Shown: positions 30,084 through 40,113 of the stretch, piece by piece
How the letters are laid out: the number at the start of each line of letters is the position of its first letter
How positions within the stretch are numbered: the first letter of the stretch is position 1
NCBI RefSeq assembly: GCF_022200785.1
Contig: NZ_CP087585.1
Location: forward strand, 3,100,001 to 3,164,000
Source: Pedobacter mucosus
GTDB taxonomy: Bacteria > Bacteroidota > Bacteroidia > Sphingobacteriales > Sphingobacteriaceae
Direction of reading: 5' to 3'
DNA length: 64,000 bases
The notes under the pieces: model-generated
What the model saw: only the letters and a program-made list of their open reading frames with translations
The model's database searches: none
What the model was told of the DNA's origin: nothing
Made by a program: the position numbers and the translations under genes

Positions 30084-31214
30084 TTAAGAAAGAATGACCA
30101 GGTCAATATCTTTCATCGCAAGGTTTTTTAAAAGTCCATTAAAAACTGCCGTTCGAAGGATAACCTGAAAAATATTTAAGTGAGGTTTTCCAACACAAAT
30201 GGTCGTAACCTCTTTTTCGGTTGCCAAATCCATTATTGCCTGTGTAATTTGGTTGCTTTTTACTTTAATTACTTCTGCACCAAGCTCGGTTGCCAACTTA
30301 AAATGATTAATCAAATGGCGCTGTTTATCGAGCTTAATCCGCTCCAAACTTTCGGGTTCGCTTTGTACGTAAAGCACTATCCAAGGCGAACGGTAATAGG
30401 AAGCGAGTCGGGCGGTTTTCCTAATTACCACGCCCGCTGTTTCCGCATTCGAAGAGATGCAGGCTAGAAACTTTTCAGGTCTTAACTTTATCGATTTTGG
30501 AATCTCGGTCTGTATTTTTCGCTCCACCTGGTGAACAACCTCCTTAAGCGCTAACTCGCGAAGCTGAAGAATTTTATCCGACTGAAAAAAATTTGCTAAC
30601 GCCCTTTCAATTTTACTTTTTTCATAAATCTTTCCTTCTTTGAGCCTGCTTACCAATTCATCGGCAGTAAGGTCAATATTTACAATTTCATCAGCAATCT
30701 CAAGAATCTTATCCGGAATACGTTCGGTTACAGCTACACCCGTAATCTGTTCAATTTCTTCATTTATGCTTTCCAGGTGCTGAATGTTAACGGCAGAAAC
30801 AACGCTTATACCAGCCTCAAGCAAATCAGAAACATCCTGCCAGCGCTTCGAATTTTTGCTTCCTTCAGCATTGGTATGCGCAAGTTCATCTACAATTACG
30901 ATTTCCGGGTGGCGATTAATGATTCCCTGAAGATCCATTTCCTCCATTTCCTTGCCCCTATAAAATATCTTGCGTCTTTCAACCATCGGCAAACCTGCTA
31001 ACAAGGCATGCGTTTCTACCCTGTTATGCGTTTCCACATAACCAATGCAAATATCGACGCCATTCCGAAGAAGTGCATGAGCCTCCTGAAGCATCCGGTA
31101 AGTTTTGCCCACACCGGCGCTCATGCCGATATAAATCTTCAGCTTTCCTCTCCTGGATTTTTTTACCAGATCCAGAAAATGCCTTACCGATTCTTCTTTG
31201 TGTTCTTCTTCCAT
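30084..31214 (-). CDS. kdpD: KdpD N-terminal sensor half (KdpD domain plus universal-stress-like domain)
   Basis: This 376-aa protein carries only the cytosolic front of KdpD. GKLKIYIGMSAGVGKTYRML holds the Walker A motif (GVGKT 34-38), VDELAHTN (108-115) is the Walker B-like motif, and the second half (about 240-376) is a USP-like fold ending in VGKPHL and DIDLVIL. The four membrane helices and the kinase of E. coli KdpD are absent. A separate kinase follows, so the K+ sensor is split over two genes, as seen in other Bacteroidota. Its start lies 7 bp after the upstream micro-ORF. Confidence 0.92.
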   Translation of the reverse strand: MEEEHKEESVRHFLDLVKKSRRGKLKIYIGMSAGVGKTYRMLQEAHALLRNGVDICIGYVETHNRVETHALLAGLPMVERRKIFYRGKEMEEMDLQGIINRHPEIVIVDELAHTNAEGSKNSKRWQDVSDLLEAGISVVSAVNIQHLESINEEIEQITGVAVTERIPDKILEIADEIVNIDLTADELVSRLKEGKIYEKSKIERALANFFQSDKILQLRELALKEVVHQVERKIQTEIPKSIKLRPEKFLACISSNAETAGVVIRKTARLASYYRSPWIVLYVQSEPESLERIKLDKQRHLINHFKLATELGAEVIKVKSNQITQAIMDLATEKEVTTICVGKPHLNIFQVILRTAVFNGLLKNLAMKDIDLVILS

Positions 31215-31221
31215 GATTTTT

Positions 31222-31353
31222 TTACCAGGTGATGCTCATCACGCCTTTTTCTATTAATATGGATATAGTGATGATCATTACCAGCGTAAACAATAATACT
31301 ATAAATCTAAATGAATTTTTTCTGGAAAGCATTCTGCTATAATTCCTGTACAT
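31222..31353 (-). CDS. 43-aa single-helix membrane protein in the kdp operon
   Basis: The reading frame starts at the ATG at 31353, inside the end of the preceding micro-ORF, and stops 7 bp before kdpD. A basic N-terminus (MYRNYSRMLSRKNSFRF) is followed by one hydrophobic helix (IVLLFTLVMIITISILI) and a short tail ending VMSITW, i.e. N-in, C-out. The tight overlap on both sides argues for translational coupling. A later ATG would give 36 residues. Function unknown; a small Kdp-associated subunit is conceivable. Confidence 0.5.
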   Translation of the reverse strand: MYRNYSRMLSRKNSFRFIVLLFTLVMIITISILIEKGVMSITW

Positions 31354-31468
31354 AATTGGTTTTTCTTGCATTTCTTTTTAATGATTTAAGGGCAGCAAGT
31401 CTTCGGATCATCAATGTTCCTAAAATGGCTAGAAACAGGGTAAAAACAACTTCAATGTATGGATGCAT
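31337..31468 (-). CDS. 43-aa single-helix membrane protein in the kdp operon
   Basis: The ATG at 31468 opens a frame with a short polar start (MHPYIEV), one helix (VFTLFLAILGTLMI) and a strongly basic tail (RRLAALKSLKRNARK). It overlaps the next micro-ORF by 17 bp. It lies between the porin and kdpD genes, on the same strand. Charge pattern predicts the tail in the cytosol. I recognise no family. Confidence 0.5.
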   Translation of the reverse strand: MHPYIEVVFTLFLAILGTLMIRRLAALKSLKRNARKTNYVQEL

Positions 31469-31524
31469 AGTATTAAATTTTGGTTATCCCACATCGGGGA
31501 TGACCGGTTTTTTATTTTGCTTCA

Positions 31525-32595
31525 CTAAAAGGATATTGCAATACTGGCGGTGATTGTGGCATTGGCATTTACAGAGGAAACATCCCTTAGAAAAATTTTG
31601 TCTTTACTGTCATAAGCCTTTCCTTCTAATCGGATAACCGCATTGGAAATTGGAGTATAATCCAGGTTTAGCGAATAACCTTTTGTTTTGAAACCATTGG
31701 GCGTTCCTGTTGTGATAAAGATTCCGTTTTTATCTTCATAATATTCAAATCTTCCGGCAACTGCCCATTTAGGCGCAAATTTATATTGCAAAATCGCGAC
31801 TGGAGAAATTACCTCGTTATTATCATCGCTACCTTTTTCTTTTTGTTGTGTACCATAATCAAAACCAACCGTTACTCCGAATTTATCGGTAAGCTGAAAT
31901 ATGCCATAAATGTTGTGGTAAAAACGGTTAACACGAACCGTATCGGCTCCTTCAGTTCCCAAATAGTTGCTATAGTTTACGGTAATTTTAGGCGTTGGCT
32001 TCCAGGTTAATTGTAAACCTCCGGCAGGTTTATTATTACCATTCTGACGAGTAATCCGTTGCCAACCGTTCAGGTAAAACGCTGCTACTGTAAGTTTTCC
32101 GTCTGTGGTTCCATAAGTTATTTTAGCGCCCGATTCATAATATGGTGTATTCTCAGAAGATATATTTCTGGTCAATACCCAACAATCTTTAGAAACTGCA
32201 CTTTCAAAACCAATATGGGAAGAAAATATTCCGGCATCAATCCATAAGTTTTCAGATTTAGAAAGCTTGACACCTGCATTGGCCTCAAAAATATTTTTTA
32301 ATACTCCTGGCTCTGCAACTAAATTCGCATTGGCATAAGTACCAGCCATAACGGCCAAATTTGCCCGTATATTTCCACTGTCGTAAGCAGCCTTGATAAA
32401 GCCTAGGTTCAGGTTAACTTCGTTTGCACGGTTGTGAGAATATATAAATCCCGGACGATTGTGTTCTGAAGGTTTATTAAAGTCATATCCATAATAAGCT
32501 TCTACATATCCTGTTACTTTGATCTTTGGTTCTTCCTGCGCAATGGCAAAAAATCCTGTGGTAAGGGCAGCGGCTAGTGATAATAATTTTTTCAT
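31525..32595 (-). CDS. Outer-membrane beta-barrel porin (OmpL/BBP2-like) of the kdp operon
   Basis: This 356-aa protein starts at the ATG at 32595, which begins a signal peptide (MKKLLSLAAALTTGFFAIAQ). The body alternates polar and hydrophobic residues (KVTGYVEAYYGYDF, NEVNLNLGFIKAAYD) as in putative beta-barrel porin family 2, and the end TITASIAISF is a final strand. Genes of this type recur in kdp operons of Bacteroidota. I infer that it lets K+ or a counter-ion cross the outer membrane under K+ limitation. It lies 173 bp after kdpC. Confidence 0.8.
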   Translation of the reverse strand: MKKLLSLAAALTTGFFAIAQEEPKIKVTGYVEAYYGYDFNKPSEHNRPGFIYSHNRANEVNLNLGFIKAAYDSGNIRANLAVMAGTYANANLVAEPGVLKNIFEANAGVKLSKSENLWIDAGIFSSHIGFESAVSKDCWVLTRNISSENTPYYESGAKITYGTTDGKLTVAAFYLNGWQRITRQNGNNKPAGGLQLTWKPTPKITVNYSNYLGTEGADTVRVNRFYHNIYGIFQLTDKFGVTVGFDYGTQQKEKGSDDNNEVISPVAILQYKFAPKWAVAGRFEYYEDKNGIFITTGTPNGFKTKGYSLNLDYTPISNAVIRLEGKAYDSKDKIFLRDVSSVNANATITASIAISF

Positions 32596-32768
32596 GTTAA
32601 ATGGGATTGTGTTGTGTAAGGCAAAGCCAATGAGGACCATGCTCGTTTTTACGAACCCCCATTTGCTTTGTTGTTGTTAATTTTTGGGTATTGTCTTATC
32701 TGACCGCTAATGTTGCCTGCGGCTTGTTTTGGCAAACGCTTTTAACGCAGGCAACTTACGGTCGAGTT

Positions 32769-33329
32769 TTAGAGTTCGTCGAGTGCAAGATTCAGTTTTA
32801 AAACATTAACCGATGATGGTCCAAATAGACCTAAAAACGGTTTTAGGGTATTCATAGCAACAAGTTCCTTTACTTTTTTCTCGTCTAATTTTCTAGCTTT
32901 AGCCACTCTCGTAATTTGAATTGCTGCCCCTTGCTCAGAAATATTTGGATCGAGTCCGCTACCAGATGCGGTAATCATATCAGCTGGAATATCAGATTTT
33001 TTTATTCCGGGATTATACTTTAATAAGGTATCAATACGGGATTGAACATCTTTTAAGTAATCAGGATTTGATGGGCCTTTATTGGAACCAGCTGATCCTG
33101 CTGCATTGTAATTTACAGCTGATGGTCTTCCCCAGAAATATTCTGGTTTCGTAAAAGACTGGCCAAGCAAAGCGTAACCAATTGTTTTCCCATTTTTAGT
33201 GATTTTTTCGCCATCGCCATTACCTTTAGATAATTTTCCTACAAAGGCTACGGTGATTGGATAAATAACGCATAACAGAACCATAAGTACAGCTGTTAAG
33301 CGGATCGATTGAATGATGTATTTTTTCAT
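32769..33329 (-). CDS. kdpC: Potassium-transporting ATPase subunit KdpC
   Basis: This 186-aa subunit has one N-terminal membrane helix (about 9-30) and a periplasmic domain with FTKPEYFWGRPSA, PNPDYLKDVQ and the signature SGSGLDPNISEQGAAIQITRVA. It stabilises the KdpFABC complex and raises ATP affinity. Its length is normal. The gap upstream of it, to kdpB, is 276 bp and filled by repeats, which is unusually wide for genes whose products bind in fixed ratio. Confidence 0.95.
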   Translation of the reverse strand: MKKYIIQSIRLTAVLMVLLCVIYPITVAFVGKLSKGNGDGEKITKNGKTIGYALLGQSFTKPEYFWGRPSAVNYNAAGSAGSNKGPSNPDYLKDVQSRIDTLLKYNPGIKKSDIPADMITASGSGLDPNISEQGAAIQITRVAKARKLDEKKVKELVAMNTLKPFLGLFGPSSVNVLKLNLALDEL

Positions 33330-33334
33330 TTTAT

Positions 33335-33600
33335 TTTTTTTTTTTAGGGAATAGAGAATAGGAAATGGGTAATTGATTGGTGGCCCTGTTCACTATGTAC
33401 TATTCCGTGTGTTTAATTTTGTTTTTTAGAAAATAGGTAACGGGCAATTGACTAATTCTTTTGAGGAAATAGGGAATGGAAAATTGACTATTTCTCTATT
33501 GCACCAGCCCTGGCATTTCCCTTTCCCAATTTCCTATTTCCTTCTTCCCTATTTCCTTATAATCTATTTCCTATTCCCCTCTTCTTCCCCATTCCTTTTC
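33335..33600. repeat. Purine/pyrimidine snap-back repeat cluster between kdpB and kdpC
   Basis: The left part is rich in words such as ggaaatagggaatgg and agagaataggaaatggg. The right part is rich in their complements (cctatttccttcttccc, ctatttcctattcccc). The two halves could fold into a long imperfect hairpin in RNA or single-stranded DNA. No gene is seen. The same word set recurs in two other kdp gaps. Confidence 0.7.
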
Positions 33601-33605
33601 CCATC

Positions 33606-35633
33606 CTAAACAAACAATCCAACTAATAAATCAATAATTTTGATTCCTATAAAAGGTGCTATTACGCCACCAATTCCATAGATAAACAGGTTTCTGCGTA
33701 AGAGTGCGGTAGCGCCGATTGGTTTATAAGCTACTCCTTTAAGTGCAAGCGGAATTAAAATCGGGATAATGATTGCATTGAAAATAACCGCAGACATAAT
33801 CGCCGATTCTGGTGAATGCAAACCCATAATATTAAGGCTTTGCAAAGCAGGAATCGAGGCAATAAATAATGCCGGTACAATGGCGAAATACTTTGCAACA
33901 TCATTGGCAATAGAGAAAGTTGTTAATGTTCCTCTGGTAATCAGCAATTGCTTTCCGATTTCTACAATTTCAATAAGTTTGGTTGGATCATTGTCTAAAT
34001 CCACCATATTCCCGGCTTCTTTCGCAGCCTGTGTTCCGCTATTCATGGCCACACCAACATCGGCCTGCGCTAAAGCAGGGGCATCATTTGTACCGTCACC
34101 CATCATCGCAACCAGTTTGCCCATTGCCTGCTCATCTCTGATATATTTCATTTTATCCTCAGGTTTAGCCTCGGCAATAAAATCATCAACACCAGCCTTT
34201 TCAGCAATGTATTTAGCGGTTAGCGGATTATCACCTGTAACCATAACCGTTTTGATACCCATTTTTCTAAGGCGCTCAAAACGTTCGCTGATCCCTGGTT
34301 TAATAATATCCTGCAATTCAATTACGCCTATTGCTTTTTCATTTTCAGAAACCACCAATGGAGTTCCTCCGTTTGAGGCAATTTTCACTACCTGTTCCTG
34401 AATATCTGCGGGGAAAATGTTGCCTGCTTTTTCAACCATATTCCTGATCGAATCAAAAGCACCTTTTCTAATGCGTCTTCCTTCAACAGTATCGAGTCCG
34501 CTTGATCGGGTTTCAGCTGTAAATTTGATAAAAGTAAATCCTTGCGGAGTTCCATTGGATTTAAACCCCTTTTCGGCCGCAAGTTCAATAATCGATTTCC
34601 CTTCTGGTGTTTCATCAGCCAAAGAACTTAACACGCAAGCATCTGTAAAAGCTTTAATATCTACACCTTTAGTTGGATAGAAGTTAGTTGCTTTACGGTT
34701 ACCAATGGTAATGGTTCCTGTTTTATCTAAAAGCAAAACATCAATATCTCCAGCAGTTTCAACTGCCTTACCAGACTTTGTAATCACGTTTGCCCTTAGC
34801 GCCCTGTCCATACCAGCAATACCGATTGCAGATAGCAAACCGCCGATTGTTGTAGGAATTAAACATACAAACAGTGAAATCAGTGCAGCAATCGTAATTG
34901 GCGTATTGGCATAATCAGCAAAGGGTTTCAGCGTTACACAAACAATGATAAATACCAAGGTAAAACTGGCCAGTAAAATCGTTAATGCAATTTCATTAGG
35001 TGTTTTCTGACGGGAAGCACCTTCAACCAAAGCAATCATTTTATCTAGAAAGCTTTCGCCTGGAGCAGTACTTACCTGTACTTTAATTTCATCAGAGAGC
35101 ACTTTCGTGCCACCGGTCACCGAAGATTTATCACCGCCAGATTCCCGGATTACCGGAGCAGATTCTCCCGTAATTGCCGATTCATCGATGGTTGCAATCC
35201 CTTCGATAATTTCTCCATCCGTTGGAATGGTATCGCCGGTTTCGCAGACAAACACATCACCTTTTTTTAACATGTTGGAAGAACGAATTTCAATGGTTCC
35301 ATTTTCTAGTAATACTTTCGCAGGCGTTTCTTCTCTTGTTTTTCTCAAACTATCAGCTTGTGCTTTACCCCTGGCCTCTGCAATTGCCTCAGCAAAATTT
35401 GCAAAAAGCACGGTAAGCAATAAAATCAGAAAGATGAAAAAATTATATATAGGAGATCCCTGTCCAGTATGATTGATAGAATATACCGTAACATAAGCCA
35501 TCACTAAGGTTCCGATTTCTACGGTAAACATGACCGGGTTACGGGCCATTACCCTTGGATCAAGCTTGATAAAAGATTGTTTAAGTGCGGTCTGCACTAA
35601 GGCAGGATCGAACAGTTTATTATTGGGTTTCAT
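33606..35633 (-). CDS. kdpB: Potassium-transporting P-type ATPase catalytic subunit KdpB
   Basis: This 675-aa subunit hydrolyses ATP to drive K+ uptake. The actuator motif TGES is at 155-158, the phosphorylation site DKTGT at 303-307, and the hinge [17 protein letters not shown] is present in the C-terminal half. Helices lie at about 35-52, 62-80, 215-235 and 245-265, with three more at the end. Sequence and length are normal for the family. Gene order is kdpF, A, B, C as usual, but with long repeat-filled gaps on both sides. Confidence 0.98.
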
Positions 35634-35742
35634 TTGTATTATTTTTAATTAAGAGTACTTTTTGGAATAGGTAATGGGAAATAGAGTTCAGGAAATTGAT
35701 ATGTGTAATAAGCATGTATATTTAGGTATTAATGCCTCAACT

Positions 35743-36105
35743 ATGAAACCACACCAAAATTTAGAAGTATGGAAAAAGAGTTTTAGTCTTGTAAAGAAAT
35801 TATACATTCTAACTTCAAAATATCCTTCAGAAGAAAAATTCGGCCTTACTTCACAAATTCGAAGAGCCTGTACTTCAATTCCAGTAAATATTGCCGAAGG
35901 ATCTGCAAGGCGATCTGATAAAGAGTTACAACATTTCTTATACATTGCCCTTGGCTCTGCAAGTGAATTAGACACGTTACTATTGCTTTCTAGAGAATTA
36001 GATTTCATTACTTCTGATGATTTTGATTCGGTATCCATCGACTTAGAATTAATTTTTAAACTTTTATTGGGTTTTATTAATATGGTTAAAAAGAGGATTG
36101 GCTAA
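35743..36105 (+). CDS. Four-helix-bundle protein (S23/IVP, Avd-like family)
   Basis: This 120-aa protein is read from the ATG at 35743 (MKPHQNLEVWKKSFSL); the frame opens 23 codons earlier. LEVWKKSFSLVKKLY, FGLTSQIRRACTSIPVNIAE and ELQHFLYIALGSASELDTLL are the conserved helices of the family named after proteins in 23S rRNA intervening sequences, which also includes the accessory protein of diversity-generating retroelements. It is encoded on the opposite strand between kdpB and kdpA and is flanked on both sides by purine-rich repeats. No reverse transcriptase is nearby. Its role is unknown. Confidence 0.85.
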   Translation: MKPHQNLEVWKKSFSLVKKLYILTSKYPSEEKFGLTSQIRRACTSIPVNIAEGSARRSDKELQHFLYIALGSASELDTLLLLSRELDFITSDDFDSVSIDLELIFKLLLGFINMVKKRIG

Positions 36106-36109
36106 GGAA

Positions 36110-36474
36110 CTTGAAAATTGACTAGATAGATAGGGAATAGAAAATGGAGAATAGGAAATAGCTTGGGTTTATACGGATTGGGAACAGGAAATAGACTGGG
36201 TTTATACAAAGAGAAGGTGGAGAATAGAATAGATTCGTTTCTTTAATTTTTTACCACTTTCCTATTTCCTATTATATTTTGTTTTATACTTTCAAATACC
36301 TGTCTTCCCCTTATCTATTTCCCATTTCCTGATCTCTATTTTCCCTACCTATATATTTCCTGATCCCTATTTCCTATCTATCCATTTCCTATTATTTTGT
36401 TTGCTACTTGTCTTTCCCCTTATCTATTTCCCATTTCCTGATCCCTATTTCCAACCATTTATTTCCAACCTCAC
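36110..36474. repeat. Purine/pyrimidine snap-back repeat cluster between kdpA and the bundle gene
   Basis: A purine-rich half (about 36125-36235, ggaatagaaaatggagaat-type words) is followed by a pyrimidine-rich half (36258-36474). Inside the latter, a roughly 36-bp unit containing ccttatctatttcccattt occurs twice, at about 36306 and 36415. A shorter purine-rich stretch lies on the other side of the bundle gene (35663-35700). Confidence 0.7.
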
Positions 36475-38196
36475 CTACTTCCCAAACATCGTAAAATATT
36501 CTGCCAATGGACCTAAAGCCAGCGCAGGAAAGTAAGAAAGTGCATTGAGTACCAATATCACAGCGAAGGTTACCAATGCAAAGGTTTTTGTATCTGTTTT
36601 AAGCGTACCAGCTGATTCAGGAATGAACTTTTTAGCAGCTAATAAACCAGCAATTGCAACAGGACCTATAATCGGCAAAAACCGACCTAGAAAAATAATG
36701 ATCCCTGTAAGTACGTTCCAGAAAATATTATTGTCTCCTAAGCCTTCAAAACCAGAACCGTTGTTTGCATTGGATGAAGTTACTTCATAAAGCATCTCTG
36801 AAAATCCGTGAAATCCAGGATTATTGAGCCAAGCTTTCGGCTGTACTGCCCAATCTGCTGCTCCATGGTTGGTAAATACGAAACTTGAAATCGCTGTTCC
36901 TGCCAGGATTAAAAATGGACTCAAAAGCGTAATAATAGCTGCAATCTTAATTTCCCGTGCTTCAACTTTGTGTCCGAGGAATTCCGGTGTTCTTCCCACC
37001 ATCAATCCTGAAATAAATACGGCAACAATTAAGTAGATAAAATAATTTAACAGACCAACTCCACATCCTCCATAAAAAGAATTAATCATCATCGCCAGCA
37101 ATTGCCATAAGCCTGTTAGCGGCATGGTACTGTCATGCATTCCGTTAACCGAACCTGTAGAAATTACGGTAGTTAAAGTGCTCCAATAAGCGGTTGCTGC
37201 CGGACCAAACCTTACTTCTTTTCCTTCCATCGCACCGCTGGCCTGAGAAATACCCAGTTTAGCCAATGCCGGATTACCACCAAGTTCGGAACTCAGGGTT
37301 GGTATTAACAGCATAAACAAGCCGATCGTCATTACGCCAAAGATTGTCCAGGCTAGCTTTCTTCTTCGGATAAAATATCCAAAAGCGATAAGCATTGCAA
37401 GCGGGATAATCGTTTGCGCAATTACTTCTACCATATTGGTTAAGTAATTAGGATTCTCAAATGGGTGAGCCGAATTGGCACCGAAGTAACCTCCACCATT
37501 TGTACCCAAATGTTTTATGGCAATCATTTGCGCTGCAGGTCCACGCGAAACATTTACGGTATCGCCCTGCATCGATATAAATTGATCTTTGCCTTCGTAA
37601 CTAGCAGGCGTACCGTTAAAAGTTAATATCAAAGCAACCACAATTGATAAGGGTAACAGTAGACGGGTAATTGCTTTTACAAAAAACTCCCAAAAACTAC
37701 CAAGTTCAGTAGCTGTTTTATCTCTAAAAGCTTTAAACAACACTACAGCTGCTGCAATACCAGTTGCGGCACTCACAAACTGTAAAAACATCAGCACATA
37801 TTGCTGGGTTAAATAACTCACGCCGCTCTCTCCAGAATAATGTTGAAGGTTACAGTTGGCAACGAAACTTATAATGGTATTAAATGCCAAATCAGCAGTC
37901 ATGCCTGGGTTTCCATCGGGATTTAATGGAAGCTTGTCCTGGAAAATCAAAACAAAGAAACCATAAACCAACCATAAAAGATTGATGGTCATCAGCGCTT
38001 TCATATGCTGTTTCCAGTTCATCTGTTCTTTAACATTAATACCGGAAAGCTTGTATATTCCAGTTTCGAGCGGTTTTAAAAAATCCGTCCAGACTTTTTC
38101 TCCTGCAAATACCTTGGCCAAATACTTCCCAAGCGGTATAGCAATAATTAAGGTGACCAGAAATGTGGCAATTATGCCAGTTAATTCAGTGTTCAT
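36475..38196 (-). CDS. kdpA: Potassium-transporting ATPase potassium-binding subunit KdpA
   Basis: This 573-aa integral membrane subunit forms the K+ channel-like pore. I take the ATG at 38196 (MNTELTG); the 23 codons upstream in frame are translated repeat sequence. Selectivity-loop elements are visible: NTIISFVANCNLQHYSGESG, GTNGGGYFGANSAHPFENP and SVNGMHDSTMPLTG, and the final DNIFWNVLTGIIIFLGRFLP with about ten helices. It couples to KdpB. Its C-terminus lies immediately next to the repeat cluster. Confidence 0.97.
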   Translation of the reverse strand: MNTELTGIIATFLVTLIIAIPLGKYLAKVFAGEKVWTDFLKPLETGIYKLSGINVKEQMNWKQHMKALMTINLLWLVYGFFVLIFQDKLPLNPDGNPGMTADLAFNTIISFVANCNLQHYSGESGVSYLTQQYVLMFLQFVSAATGIAAAVVLFKAFRDKTATELGSFWEFFVKAITRLLLPLSIVVALILTFNGTPASYEGKDQFISMQGDTVNVSRGPAAQMIAIKHLGTNGGGYFGANSAHPFENPNYLTNMVEVIAQTIIPLAMLIAFGYFIRRRKLAWTIFGVMTIGLFMLLIPTLSSELGGNPALAKLGISQASGAMEGKEVRFGPAATAYWSTLTTVISTGSVNGMHDSTMPLTGLWQLLAMMINSFYGGCGVGLLNYFIYLIVAVFISGLMVGRTPEFLGHKVEAREIKIAAIITLLSPFLILAGTAISSFVFTNHGAADWAVQPKAWLNNPGFHGFSEMLYEVTSSNANNGSGFEGLGDNNIFWNVLTGIIIFLGRFLPIIGPVAIAGLLAAKKFIPESAGTLKTDTKTFALVTFAVILVLNALSYFPALALGPLAEYFTMFGK

Positions 38197-38204
38197 TTTT
38201 TTGT

Positions 38205-38428
38205 TTTTTAGCGAATGGGTGATAGGAAATGGAGAATAGAGAATGGGAAATGGGTTGAGAGGCAAATCACTATACTTCTAGTCTATTCCCTATTTCCTCC
38301 CCTTTCTATTTTGAGAAATTGATAACAGTAAATAGGAAATGGGTTGGGCGGCAAATCACTATACCTTTAGTCTGTTTCCTATTTCCCCTCTTTCTATTTC
38401 CTGCTTTTCTATTCCCTCCTCTTTCTAT
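38205..38428. repeat. Purine/pyrimidine snap-back repeat cluster between kdpF and kdpA
   Basis: A unit beginning ggaaatgggttg and running through ggcaaatcactatac to cctatttcc occurs twice with a period of 89 bp (from 38246 and from 38335). Each copy is itself purine-rich on the left and pyrimidine-rich on the right. No gene is present. Confidence 0.75.
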
Positions 38429-38429
38429 T

Positions 38430-38507
38430 TTAAAATTTTTCTGGTTTGATCAGCACGTAAATCATATAGATAAATACGGCGATGGCGATAATGAATAATG
38501 CGATCAT
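38430..38507 (-). CDS. kdpF: Potassium-transporting ATPase small subunit KdpF
   Basis: This 25-aa peptide (MIALFIIAIAVFIYMIYVLI then KPEKF) is a single membrane helix with the K/R-P-E-K-F ending characteristic of KdpF. It stabilises the KdpABC complex. It is encoded upstream of kdpA on the same strand, 5 bp after another 26-aa ORF. The gap to kdpA is 233 bp because of the repeat cluster. Confidence 0.88.
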   Translation of the reverse strand: MIALFIIAIAVFIYMIYVLIKPEKF

Positions 38508-38512
38508 AATTT

Positions 38513-38593
38513 TTAGATTTTTTCGAACCAGTCGATTGATTTGTAAGCTGTCCAGCAGAGCAGCATAAGGATGAAGAATAGTAGTAATGTCAT
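38513..38593 (-). CDS. 26-aa membrane micro-ORF upstream of kdpF
   Basis: The ATG at 38593 opens a frame of one hydrophobic helix (MTLLLFFILMLLCW) and an amphipathic tail (TAYKSIDWFEKI). It stops 5 bp before the kdpF start. Position and composition suggest a second small Kdp-associated membrane peptide, or a leader peptide. I recognise no named family. Confidence 0.5.
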   Translation of the reverse strand: MTLLLFFILMLLCWTAYKSIDWFEKI

Positions 38594-38617
38594 GATTGTT
38601 TTAATTTACATCCCTGT

Positions 38618-38634
38618 AACCAAGTGTTATGCCA
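38618..38634 (-). promoter_or_regulatory. Possible sigma-54 promoter of the kdp operon
   Basis: On the minus strand TGGCATAACACTTGGTT resembles the -24/-12 pattern TGGCAC-N5-TTGCA, with a G for C mismatch at the -12 element. It ends 25 bp before the first micro-ORF of the operon, a suitable distance. No sigma-54 activator is in the window. Confidence 0.35.
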
Positions 38635-38712
38635 TAAAAACTAACAACGAATTAAGTAATTGATTTTTAGATATTTAACAACATTTTAATAAGCCGTCTC
38701 AAATATTAACCA

Positions 38713-38746
38713 AAAATACCCTTCCAAAATGGAAGGGTATTTTTTC
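38713..38746. terminator. Bidirectional Rho-independent terminator
   Basis: ATACCCTTCC pairs perfectly with GGAAGGGTAT around a four-base loop, with five A before and six T after, so it can stop transcripts from both sides. It separates the kdp promoter region from genes to the right. Confidence 0.8.
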
Positions 38747-38804
38747 ATATTGAAAATTGTTTAAAGGAGTTAAGTTACTGATTGGCTAAAAAAAGAATTA
38801 CCGT

Positions 38805-38999
38805 ATGAATAAATTGCCAATCATTGATCAGGTGGAAATCTTGATCATAGAGGATATTACGAATTATTACTTAAGATTTAAGGATTTGCTTTACAAAGTT
38901 AGATTGCACACTACCACCTTACATAAACTAAAATATCCAGTTTATTGTAAATGGAGAAATTATAAACAGGCGATAGTTTCTTCAGGCAGAAATGAATAA
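38805..38999 (+). CDS. Hypothetical 64-aa protein
   Basis: The frame (MNKLPIIDQVEILIIEDITN...) is basic in its second half (LHKLKYPVYCKWRNYK) and has no recognised domain. No clear ribosome binding site is seen. It overlaps no other gene. Its opposite strand would be the 3' untranslated tail of the DUF808 gene. It may be a real small protein or chance. Confidence 0.3.
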   Translation: MNKLPIIDQVEILIIEDITNYYLRFKDLLYKVRLHTTTLHKLKYPVYCKWRNYKQAIVSSGRNE

Positions 39000-39029
39000 A
39001 GAATTTTATTATCATAGAAGATTTAGAAA

Positions 39030-39914
39030 CTAACCCACCACAGCTTTATCGCCTTTAAACAGCAACCTAATCTTTTTCCAGGCAACTACAGCGGTTACTA
39101 CCAATAAACCGGCAATAATGCCAATGCTAAATTCTTTTATAATGGATGGAACTTTTGGTAACAGATCATGAAAAAAACCGATGTTATGCACAAATATGCC
39201 ACCTGCAACGAGGATTAAGGCTATTGTACCAGCAAAACTTAACATCCGCACAAGAATTGGCAATGATTTTACAAGTAAAGTGCCTAAGCCAAAAAGGAAA
39301 CCTTTGTTACCGCTTTTTTTAATTAGTTTGTAACCTGCGTCATCCATCCTCACAATAAGCGCCACAATTCCGTAAACACCTATTGTAGCTAATAATGCAA
39401 CTATCGAAACCGTCAATATTTGAATAGTTATACTCTTTTCCATCACCGTTCCAAGCGCAATGATTACAATTTCTACAGAAAGAATAAAATCCGTAGTGAT
39501 GGCAGATCTAACCTTGGCTTTTTCAACAGTGCTATCATCTTCGTCAATATTCTTTATGGTTTTTGGGTCCACTTCGGCATGAGGAAAGAAATAATGTACA
39601 ATCTTTTCTACCCCTTCATAAGCCAAAAAAAATCCACCTAGAATAAGTATTATTTTTATAGCCAATGGCAAAAAAGCACTAAGCAGCAAGGCAATTGGAA
39701 CGATGATAAGTTTATTAAGGAAAGAACCTTTTGTTATAGACCAAAGTACGGGAAGTTCCCTAGACTCAAGAAAGCCAGTAGCTTTTTCTGCATTTACTGC
39801 AAGATCATCTCCTAATATGCCAGCGGTTTTTTTTGTGGCGATTTTCGCCGTAATTGCTACATCATCCATTAATGCTGCGATATCATCTAAAATCGCGAAG
39901 AAACCTGATGCCAT
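39030..39914 (-). CDS. DUF808 family inner-membrane protein (YedI-like)
   Basis: This 294-aa membrane protein starts at the ATG at 39914 (MASGFFAILDDIAALMDDVA, the conserved family opening). The frame is open 15 codons further. KTAGILGDDLAVNAEKATGF and REL-PVLWSITKGSFLNK follow, then about seven hydrophobic segments. YFFPHAEVD is a conserved cytosolic stretch. Molecular function is unknown. It is a single-gene unit facing the terminator at 38713. Confidence 0.92.
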   Translation of the reverse strand: MASGFFAILDDIAALMDDVAITAKIATKKTAGILGDDLAVNAEKATGFLESRELPVLWSITKGSFLNKLIIVPIALLLSAFLPLAIKIILILGGFFLAYEGVEKIVHYFFPHAEVDPKTIKNIDEDDSTVEKAKVRSAITTDFILSVEIVIIALGTVMEKSITIQILTVSIVALLATIGVYGIVALIVRMDDAGYKLIKKSGNKGFLFGLGTLLVKSLPILVRMLSFAGTIALILVAGGIFVHNIGFFHDLLPKVPSIIKEFSIGIIAGLLVVTAVVAWKKIRLLFKGDKAVVG

Positions 39915-40113
39915 ATTTAAAATTTTGTAAAATTCCGTACCCTTATACCTGATCAACAAACTTAAATCTTGGTAAATAGTTTTAATTTGTTGTAATGGTA
40001 ATTGCGGTGAAATTAAATCATTTATTTTAAATATCGATAAATTAAAGACTGTAAAATGCCTTGATATTTATGCCGGCAACCCAACTAACGCCAATAATCA
40101 ACATATTAATAAA

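Follow-up and report, generated by a model that had tools for sequence, protein, structure and literature searches.

The four-helix-bundle (4HB) proteins of the S23/IVP family (PF05635) are common in the genus Pedobacter and in its class and have solved relatives, and we know of no function that has been agreed for them. Mobile introns and inteins, the homing elements, form site-specific lineages, and the tree of the elements at a site can conflict with that of the host. Intervening sequences (IVSs) of 23S rRNA, found in Coxiella, Leptospira and others, contain an S23 open reading frame (ORF) and are described, in the portion of the source used here, as selfish elements of unclear origin (PMC4990558). 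In diversity-generating retroelements (DGRs) with Avd, a hairpin or cruciform near the target acts through its structure and not its sequence, according to the sections of the paper drawn on here (PMC3240598). Intergenic heptamer repeats, some of them within operons, occur in cyanobacteria, Beggiatoaceae and some Bacteroidetes (PMC4679880, PMC2408588; excerpts of both).

The unit described here lies in the kdp operon of Pedobacter mucosus, within a window of 64,000 nucleotides (the whole stretch of DNA that was analysed). It resembles the IVS, as presented in the same portion of PMC4990558, in having an S23-family ORF looped between complementary ends, which are imperfect at kdp. Unlike the IVS, it sits between operon genes and its ends consist of imperfect heptad arrays whose word is type-specific; no rRNA match was found in the 20 loci scanned of the 80 named loci introduced below. 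Its 4HB protein is related to the Avd of DGRs, but scores below the Avd cut-offs, and the nearest PF00078 match is about 39 kb away. Arrays of 7-nt units between genes are shared with the intergenic heptamers, both in 4HB flanks and in gene-less kdp gaps, and weakly in the kdp gap that holds the gene. However, the published heptamers are, in the excerpts used, mainly direct repeats of one word, whereas here matched inverted pairs surround a gene and each locus or type has its own word. The searched text of PMC4679880 makes no mention of four-helix or S23 genes, and no link between 4HB genes and heptad arms appeared in the titles or abstract openings of the open-licence PMC papers listed by literature searches. 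Like homing elements, the 4HB genes form mostly site-specific lineages, and at one of two sites examined, argC-argD, their tree conflicts with host and neighbour trees; unlike them, the unit has no nuclease, splicing or recombinase function, lies between genes, and looks vertically inherited at another site, thyA-folA.

A four-helix-bundle gene between inverted heptad arrays in kdp

The kdp operon lies on the − strand, and the junction of kdpA (36475 onward) and kdpB (33606-35633) is broken by 841 bp containing a single + strand gene. An earlier note on this DNA had placed a 4HB gene among snap-back repeats on the strand opposite to kdp, and this was borne out: a PF05635 gene of 120 codons (35743..36105, +), matching also TIGR02436 and the structure 2gsc, is surrounded by inverted arrays of about 7 nt. 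The whole unit, 4HB gene plus arms, is the kdpA-kdpB gap (35634..36474). The gene likely starts at ATG 35743; in our reading, the longer ORF from 35674 begins within the repeat. The left arm (35661..35704, +) consists of G-rich heptad words and forms the inverted pairs I1, I2, I4 and I5 with 36324-36468. Immediately after the gene comes a second G-rich array (~36105..36227, +), which contains the direct-repeat families D3 and D4 and has inverted matches with 36258-36280 and 36354-36382. The right arm found by the repeat search (~36246..36472, −) is made of several sub-arrays, C-rich on the + strand and G-rich on the −. The inverted pairs are 31-36 nt long with 75-81% complementarity.

The arm word at kdp is RRAATRG, which reads G-rich before and directly after the gene and as C-rich complements on the right side. 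The genome contains 22 matches to the pattern (RRAATRG)n, spread over 11 places of which three are in kdp, compared with one match for the reversed control pattern; the word is therefore not due to chance. The eight places outside kdp hold gene-less arrays of this word. The same word recurs in the gene-less snap-back of the kdpB-kdpC gap (33330..33605; 7-nt self-similarity 0.18), and the kdpB-kdpC gaps of four other loci (L125, L131, L134, L145) also carry this word. Further gene-less arrays of it, with repeat D7, lie upstream of kdpA (38197..38440), where a 79-nt snap-back piece is doubled (38226-38304 and 38315-38393, 81% alike). The ORF listed for kdpA (36475-38265) begins at a TTG within this array, and ATG 38196 was read by eye as the start.

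These two gene-less gaps were the only parts of the window in which 7-nt self-similarity exceeded 0.1 (170-nt pieces starting at 33241-33461 and 38141-38301); the gap with the gene fell below that mark, with 0.06 across its whole length. Its folding was modest (z −2.3, equalled by 1 of 20 shuffles). The kdpB-kdpC gap gave z −2.62 (1 of 200 shuffles equally good) and the arrays upstream of kdpA z −0.96 (32 of 200). The only other ORF of at least 80 amino acids in the gene gap runs antisense to the 4HB gene, and among ORFs of that size the unit encodes no nuclease, recombinase or transposase of its own. No Rfam match was found within 31000-40000.

Matched arms across the family

Arm pairing was measured by aligning the left flank of each gene with the reverse complement of its right flank, using flanks mispaired between loci as the control. 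The first set comprised 102 distinct genes, 89 from the genus and 13 from other families of the class, left from 108 matches after repeats and two short flanks were dropped. The median arm score was 29 for own flanks and 20 for mispaired ones, and 68 of the 102 genes exceeded the 95% line of the mispaired flanks (61/89 in the genus, 7/13 in the rest of the class). For 23 genes, the own right flank was the best of all 102 partners. The second, named set was not random: it was the best 80 of at least 591 confirmed matches, based on one conserved motif, and 77 of the 80 could be tested. In these 77 loci from ten phyla the median score was 33 against 19 for mispaired flanks, with 54 above the line and 37 having their own flank as best partner. 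The loci above the line were 40/58 in Bacteroidota, 3/3 in Acidobacteriota, 2/2 in Planctomycetota, 1/3 in Bacillota, 1/2 in Chloroflexota, 2/4 of the unplaced, and 1/1 each in Pseudomonadota, Cyanobacteriota, Ignavibacteriota, Omnitrophota and Cloacimonadota. Clear arms by this line were absent from 34/102 and 23/77 loci respectively. Other genes exceeded it in 6/221 cases from genomes lacking a 4HB gene, 9/167 from genomes with one, and 9/75 at the named loci. Flank matches in direct orientation were also above chance in the named set, 17/77 passing the same line.

The period of the 4HB flanks is 7 in both sets, with a weaker 8 in the first. Where arms passed the line, the 5′ arm in the sense of the gene has more G than C in 63/68 genes of the first set and 47/54 of the second; in all sets, G-rich heptads were seen to point inward from both ends of the flanks. 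The word varies between loci, yet agrees between the two arms of one locus. The genome that carries the kdp unit has three other PF05635 genes (L002-L004), which lack RRAATRG and, by eye, each have inverted arrays of other words. Some of the flank words look like telomere repeats (TTAGGT-like).

Concerted evolution of the arms was considered using 75 genes of ten sites, some of which are pieces of one broken gene. Own arm pairs scored 28 and cross-species pairs 18, but own arms did not do better than orthologous left arms (28 vs 25, p 0.28), nor clearly better than orthologous right arms (23, p 0.05), so concerted evolution was not separated from lineage and was not retained. Covariation indicative of an RNA stem did not exceed the shuffle maximum in any of five alignments, the argG-argC set equalling the maximum at 0.877.

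Sites and orientation of the four-helix-bundle genes

The kdp protein scores 122.4 bits against PF05635 (cut-off 33.8) and 116.7 against TIGR02436 (cut-off 24), and falls short of the cut-offs for bAvd (20 vs 40 bits) and DGR Avd (20.7 vs 80); it is related to Avd but well below these thresholds. The closest solved structure by sequence is 2gsc (E 1e-28), followed by 2rld.

The sites of 4HB genes recur across species and lie in operon gaps, which we take to be argG-argC-argD-argF, thiolase/acyl-CoA dehydrogenase, metH-metF, thyA-folA, tig-clpP, folP-disA and others; except for the kdp genes, these names are our reading of the neighbouring sequences. The 4HB gene has the same strand as both neighbours in 92/101 cases from the genus and class and in 63/72 named loci. 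The antisense orientation at kdp is thus an exception in the family, one of four of this kind, the kdp orthologue in genome G003 being another.

A tree of 80 of the 102 proteins, short matches being dropped, grouped them by site, with 20 label changes for 12 groups compared to 57.6 in shuffles. The arg, thyA-folA, tig-clpP, agmatine-deiminase, folP-disA and kdp groups each occupy one side of a branch; the acyl, metH-metF, wzm-wzt and tag groups need 2-3 changes each. Since most clades of 4HB proteins are specific to one site, free transposition inside a genome is rare or old, and frequent transposition there is unsupported.

Apparent exchange of cassettes at argC-argD

Exchange was examined at two sites, argC-argD and thyA-folA; kdp offers two copies. 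At argC-argD, 26 of 27 ArgC loci were read, G056 being left out as a partial match, and 21 of the 26 genomes carry a cassette. By arm word and gene clade, these were split by eye into five types. For the five types, 4 changes suffice on the 4HB tree, compared with 13 on each of the kdpB, adjacent argC and folA trees; on a combined kdpB and folA tree of 20 genomes they require 11, with a shuffle mean of 11.5. Clustering on the arms alone gave four groups, which need 3 changes on the 4HB tree, the minimum possible, compared to 10 on kdpB and 10 on argC, no fewer than in shuffles (means 8.6-8.8). Since the types fit the 4HB tree and not those of kdpB or argC, gene and arms seem to have been exchanged as a unit, and whole cassettes appear to have been swapped between related species.

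Among seven species pairs that are more than 0.92 identical in kdpB, six have 4HB genes at argC-argD that are just 0.60-0.65 alike. G073 and G019 carry different cassettes, but are 0.95-1.00 alike over 600 nt on the argD side and 0.94-0.97 over the nearest 400 nt on the argC side, followed by 0.90 and 0.84. Similarity stops a few bases from the argC stop codon and resumes about 14 nt before the argD start. No target-site duplication was evident in this alignment; elsewhere the intergenic sequence is too diverged. Within a type, the 4HB gene is more alike than the argC end in 41/47 pairs and than the argD start in 25/47, most clearly in type B, where the 4HB genes of G042 and G067 are 0.986 alike compared to 0.873 (argC end) and 0.896 (argD start). 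In G001 and G008, with kdpB 0.95 alike, the argC side has diverged too (0.81-0.88 over 600 nt), which may reflect ordinary recombination. Over-dispersion of the types among sister species was not significant (P 0.23-0.26). The 4HB genes at argC-argD still correlate weakly with the species (r 0.35, p 0.006; argC itself 0.75). In contrast, thyA-folA has one word family throughout and its distances follow the species (r 0.71, 14 genomes), so that inheritance there looks vertical.

Median dN/dS at argC-argD was 0.04 for type A, 0.10 for type B and 0.05 for type C, taken over pairs with dS between 0 and 3 and leaving out G003 (type B) and G019 (type C). This purifying selection implies that the 4HB protein does something, at least at argC-argD. 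In G003, an in-frame stop interrupts the kdp orthologue.

Empty sites and gene-less arrays

Empty sites had been predicted, and at kdpA-kdpB they are frequent: of 50 genomes whose kdp locus could be read, 25 have a gap of at most 15 bp, and a 4HB gene is present in two, that of the window and G003, which are not sisters in the kdpB tree. The presence of the gene at kdp is thus patchy. The remaining kdpA-kdpB gaps hold REP-like palindromes or gene-less heptad arrays of another word, the latter clearly in L129 and L133. Both argG-argC and thyA-folA are 0 bp in the four genomes without a 4HB gene that were read. The argG-argC gap has a gene-less heptad array of 79-97 bp in seven genomes that have 4HB genes, and a 4HB gene itself in two.

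Several other contents of these junctions were noted. The 256-bp thyA-folA gap of G008 (L389) holds an apparent decayed 4HB remnant between the usual arms. REP-like GTCA palindromes of several families occupy the same kdp, arg and thyA-folA junctions in other species (L116-L145, L355-L407). The argG-argC gap is 419-914 bp with another coding stretch in nine genomes (L361, L362, L364, L366, L367, L369, L374-L376); by eye, some ends are acetyltransferase-like, and in some cases a heptad array opens the gap. Two gene-less arrays, L252 (G057) and L235 (G063), run through successive heptad words, such as CATAGTC followed by AACTG-type.

Heptad arrays were then counted by a set rule in 80 pieces of 20 kb, at round coordinates that we placed ourselves and not at random, none of which contains a 4HB gene. 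There were 13 arrays in the 40 pieces from genomes with a 4HB gene elsewhere and 0 in the 40 from genomes without one (132 and 122 kb of intergenic DNA respectively; binomial p 0.00027). Two of the 13 (L204, L206) are doubtful, and a looser mark gives 21 vs 3. As the genomes with 4HB genes form one clade plus one outlier in the 50-genome kdpB tree, the association amounts to about two independent contrasts. RRAATRG is abundant (11-42 matches) in seven genomes of a sample of 60 from the genus, all seven having 4HB genes. Of 38 genomes with 4HB genes, 16 lack a reverse transcriptase within the scope of PF00078, one of these having 18 copies, and so do 8 of the 22 genomes that have no 4HB gene. 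A dependence on such an enzyme is not supported, there being no association across these genomes; the sole PF00078 match in the genome of the window is at G000:C1:3175118, about 39 kb from the kdp 4HB gene.

Discussion

We consider it somewhat probable, at slightly better than even, that the kdp unit is a 4HB cassette with heptad arms, in which inverted, type-specific 7-nt arrays in an operon junction enclose an S23/IVP gene, with an IVS-like stem and moved by host recombination. As in the intervening sequences of rRNA, the arms would pair in the transcript, and the resulting stem would keep the passenger isolated, so that its residence in an operon would cost little. The 4HB protein, by analogy with Avd, may bind the structured nucleic acid of its own element, either hairpin RNA or cruciform DNA, and transfer might rely on recombination by the host at the junction, with the hairpin perhaps as a guide, and not on reverse transcription. 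We infer the stem and the protein that would recognise it from the plan of the IVS, an S23 gene in a potential stem, and from the Avd hairpin systems; IVS-like stem and passenger are thus roles suggested by analogy. A strict RNA stem is weakened by the lack of covariation beyond shuffles within a type and by the modest fold scores.

An alternative account, to which we give clearly less than even weight, is that the 4HB gene is an ordinary member of its operon, co-transcribed and with a housekeeping or stress role, that the arrays are slippage-prone filler, and that the swaps are homologous recombination through the conserved flanking genes. It would explain why most 4HB genes share the strand of both neighbours, why they are under strong purifying selection and fall into site-specific clades, and why the argC side of G001 and G008 has diverged as recombination tracts would cause; among long simple repeats, moreover, heptamers are the most frequent in many genomes (PMC4679880, in the excerpt used). 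Against it, the arms are inverted, have a locus-specific word in common, change with the gene and are missing from other genes, and the swap between G073 and G019 left closely alike flanks on both sides. Another possibility is that the arrays are general REP-like intergenic hairpins serving operon mRNA ends or stability, with the 4HB gene incidental; the gene-less arrays speak for it, as do the GTCA palindromes in the same kdp and arg gaps of other species. We regard this as improbable, because arm pairing at 4HB genes is far above that at other genes, arm groups agree with gene clades at argC-argD, and the count of 13 arrays against 0 follows the presence of 4HB genes, albeit over about two phylogenetic contrasts.

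The earlier note had proposed a passive element spread by host reverse transcriptases, the other kdp gaps being its gene-less derivatives. The kinship of the 4HB protein with DGR Avd and the nearby gene-less arrays of the same word speak for this, but genomes lacking PF00078 are found both with and without 4HB genes, the words differ between loci and the clades are site-specific, so that it seems very improbable as a whole. Mobilisation by reverse transcriptases in particular found no backing in the PF00078 survey. Parts of the proposal hold: gene and repeats were apparently exchanged together at argC-argD, although the site-specific clades, and at kdp just a patchy presence, do not speak for general mobility. 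Arrays of the kdp word do lie in two neighbouring gaps and eight other places, and derivation of gene-less arrays from gene-bearing ones is plausible. The expectation that the same repeat words flank other members fails; as far as the sequences indicate, there are instead cassette types, each with its own matched pair of arms, that travel whole at argC-argD.

Beyond the heptad-armed cassette as such, a more speculative extension, which we rate as possible though doubtful, is a new homing-like class present in many phyla. The 4HB protein and its own heptad arms would recognise each other, the cassette would reach fixed operon junctions by hairpin- or cruciform-guided recombination, needing neither nuclease nor reverse transcriptase, and it might seed or maintain gene-less snap-backs in trans.

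If matched heptad arms regularly accompany PF05635 genes, the family and the long-noted 7-nt arrays would each have a partner open to testing. Close relatives carry five interchangeable types at argC-argD, which makes this junction a convenient system for studying by what means a passenger lacking its own enzymes moves, and why it is tolerated in operons.
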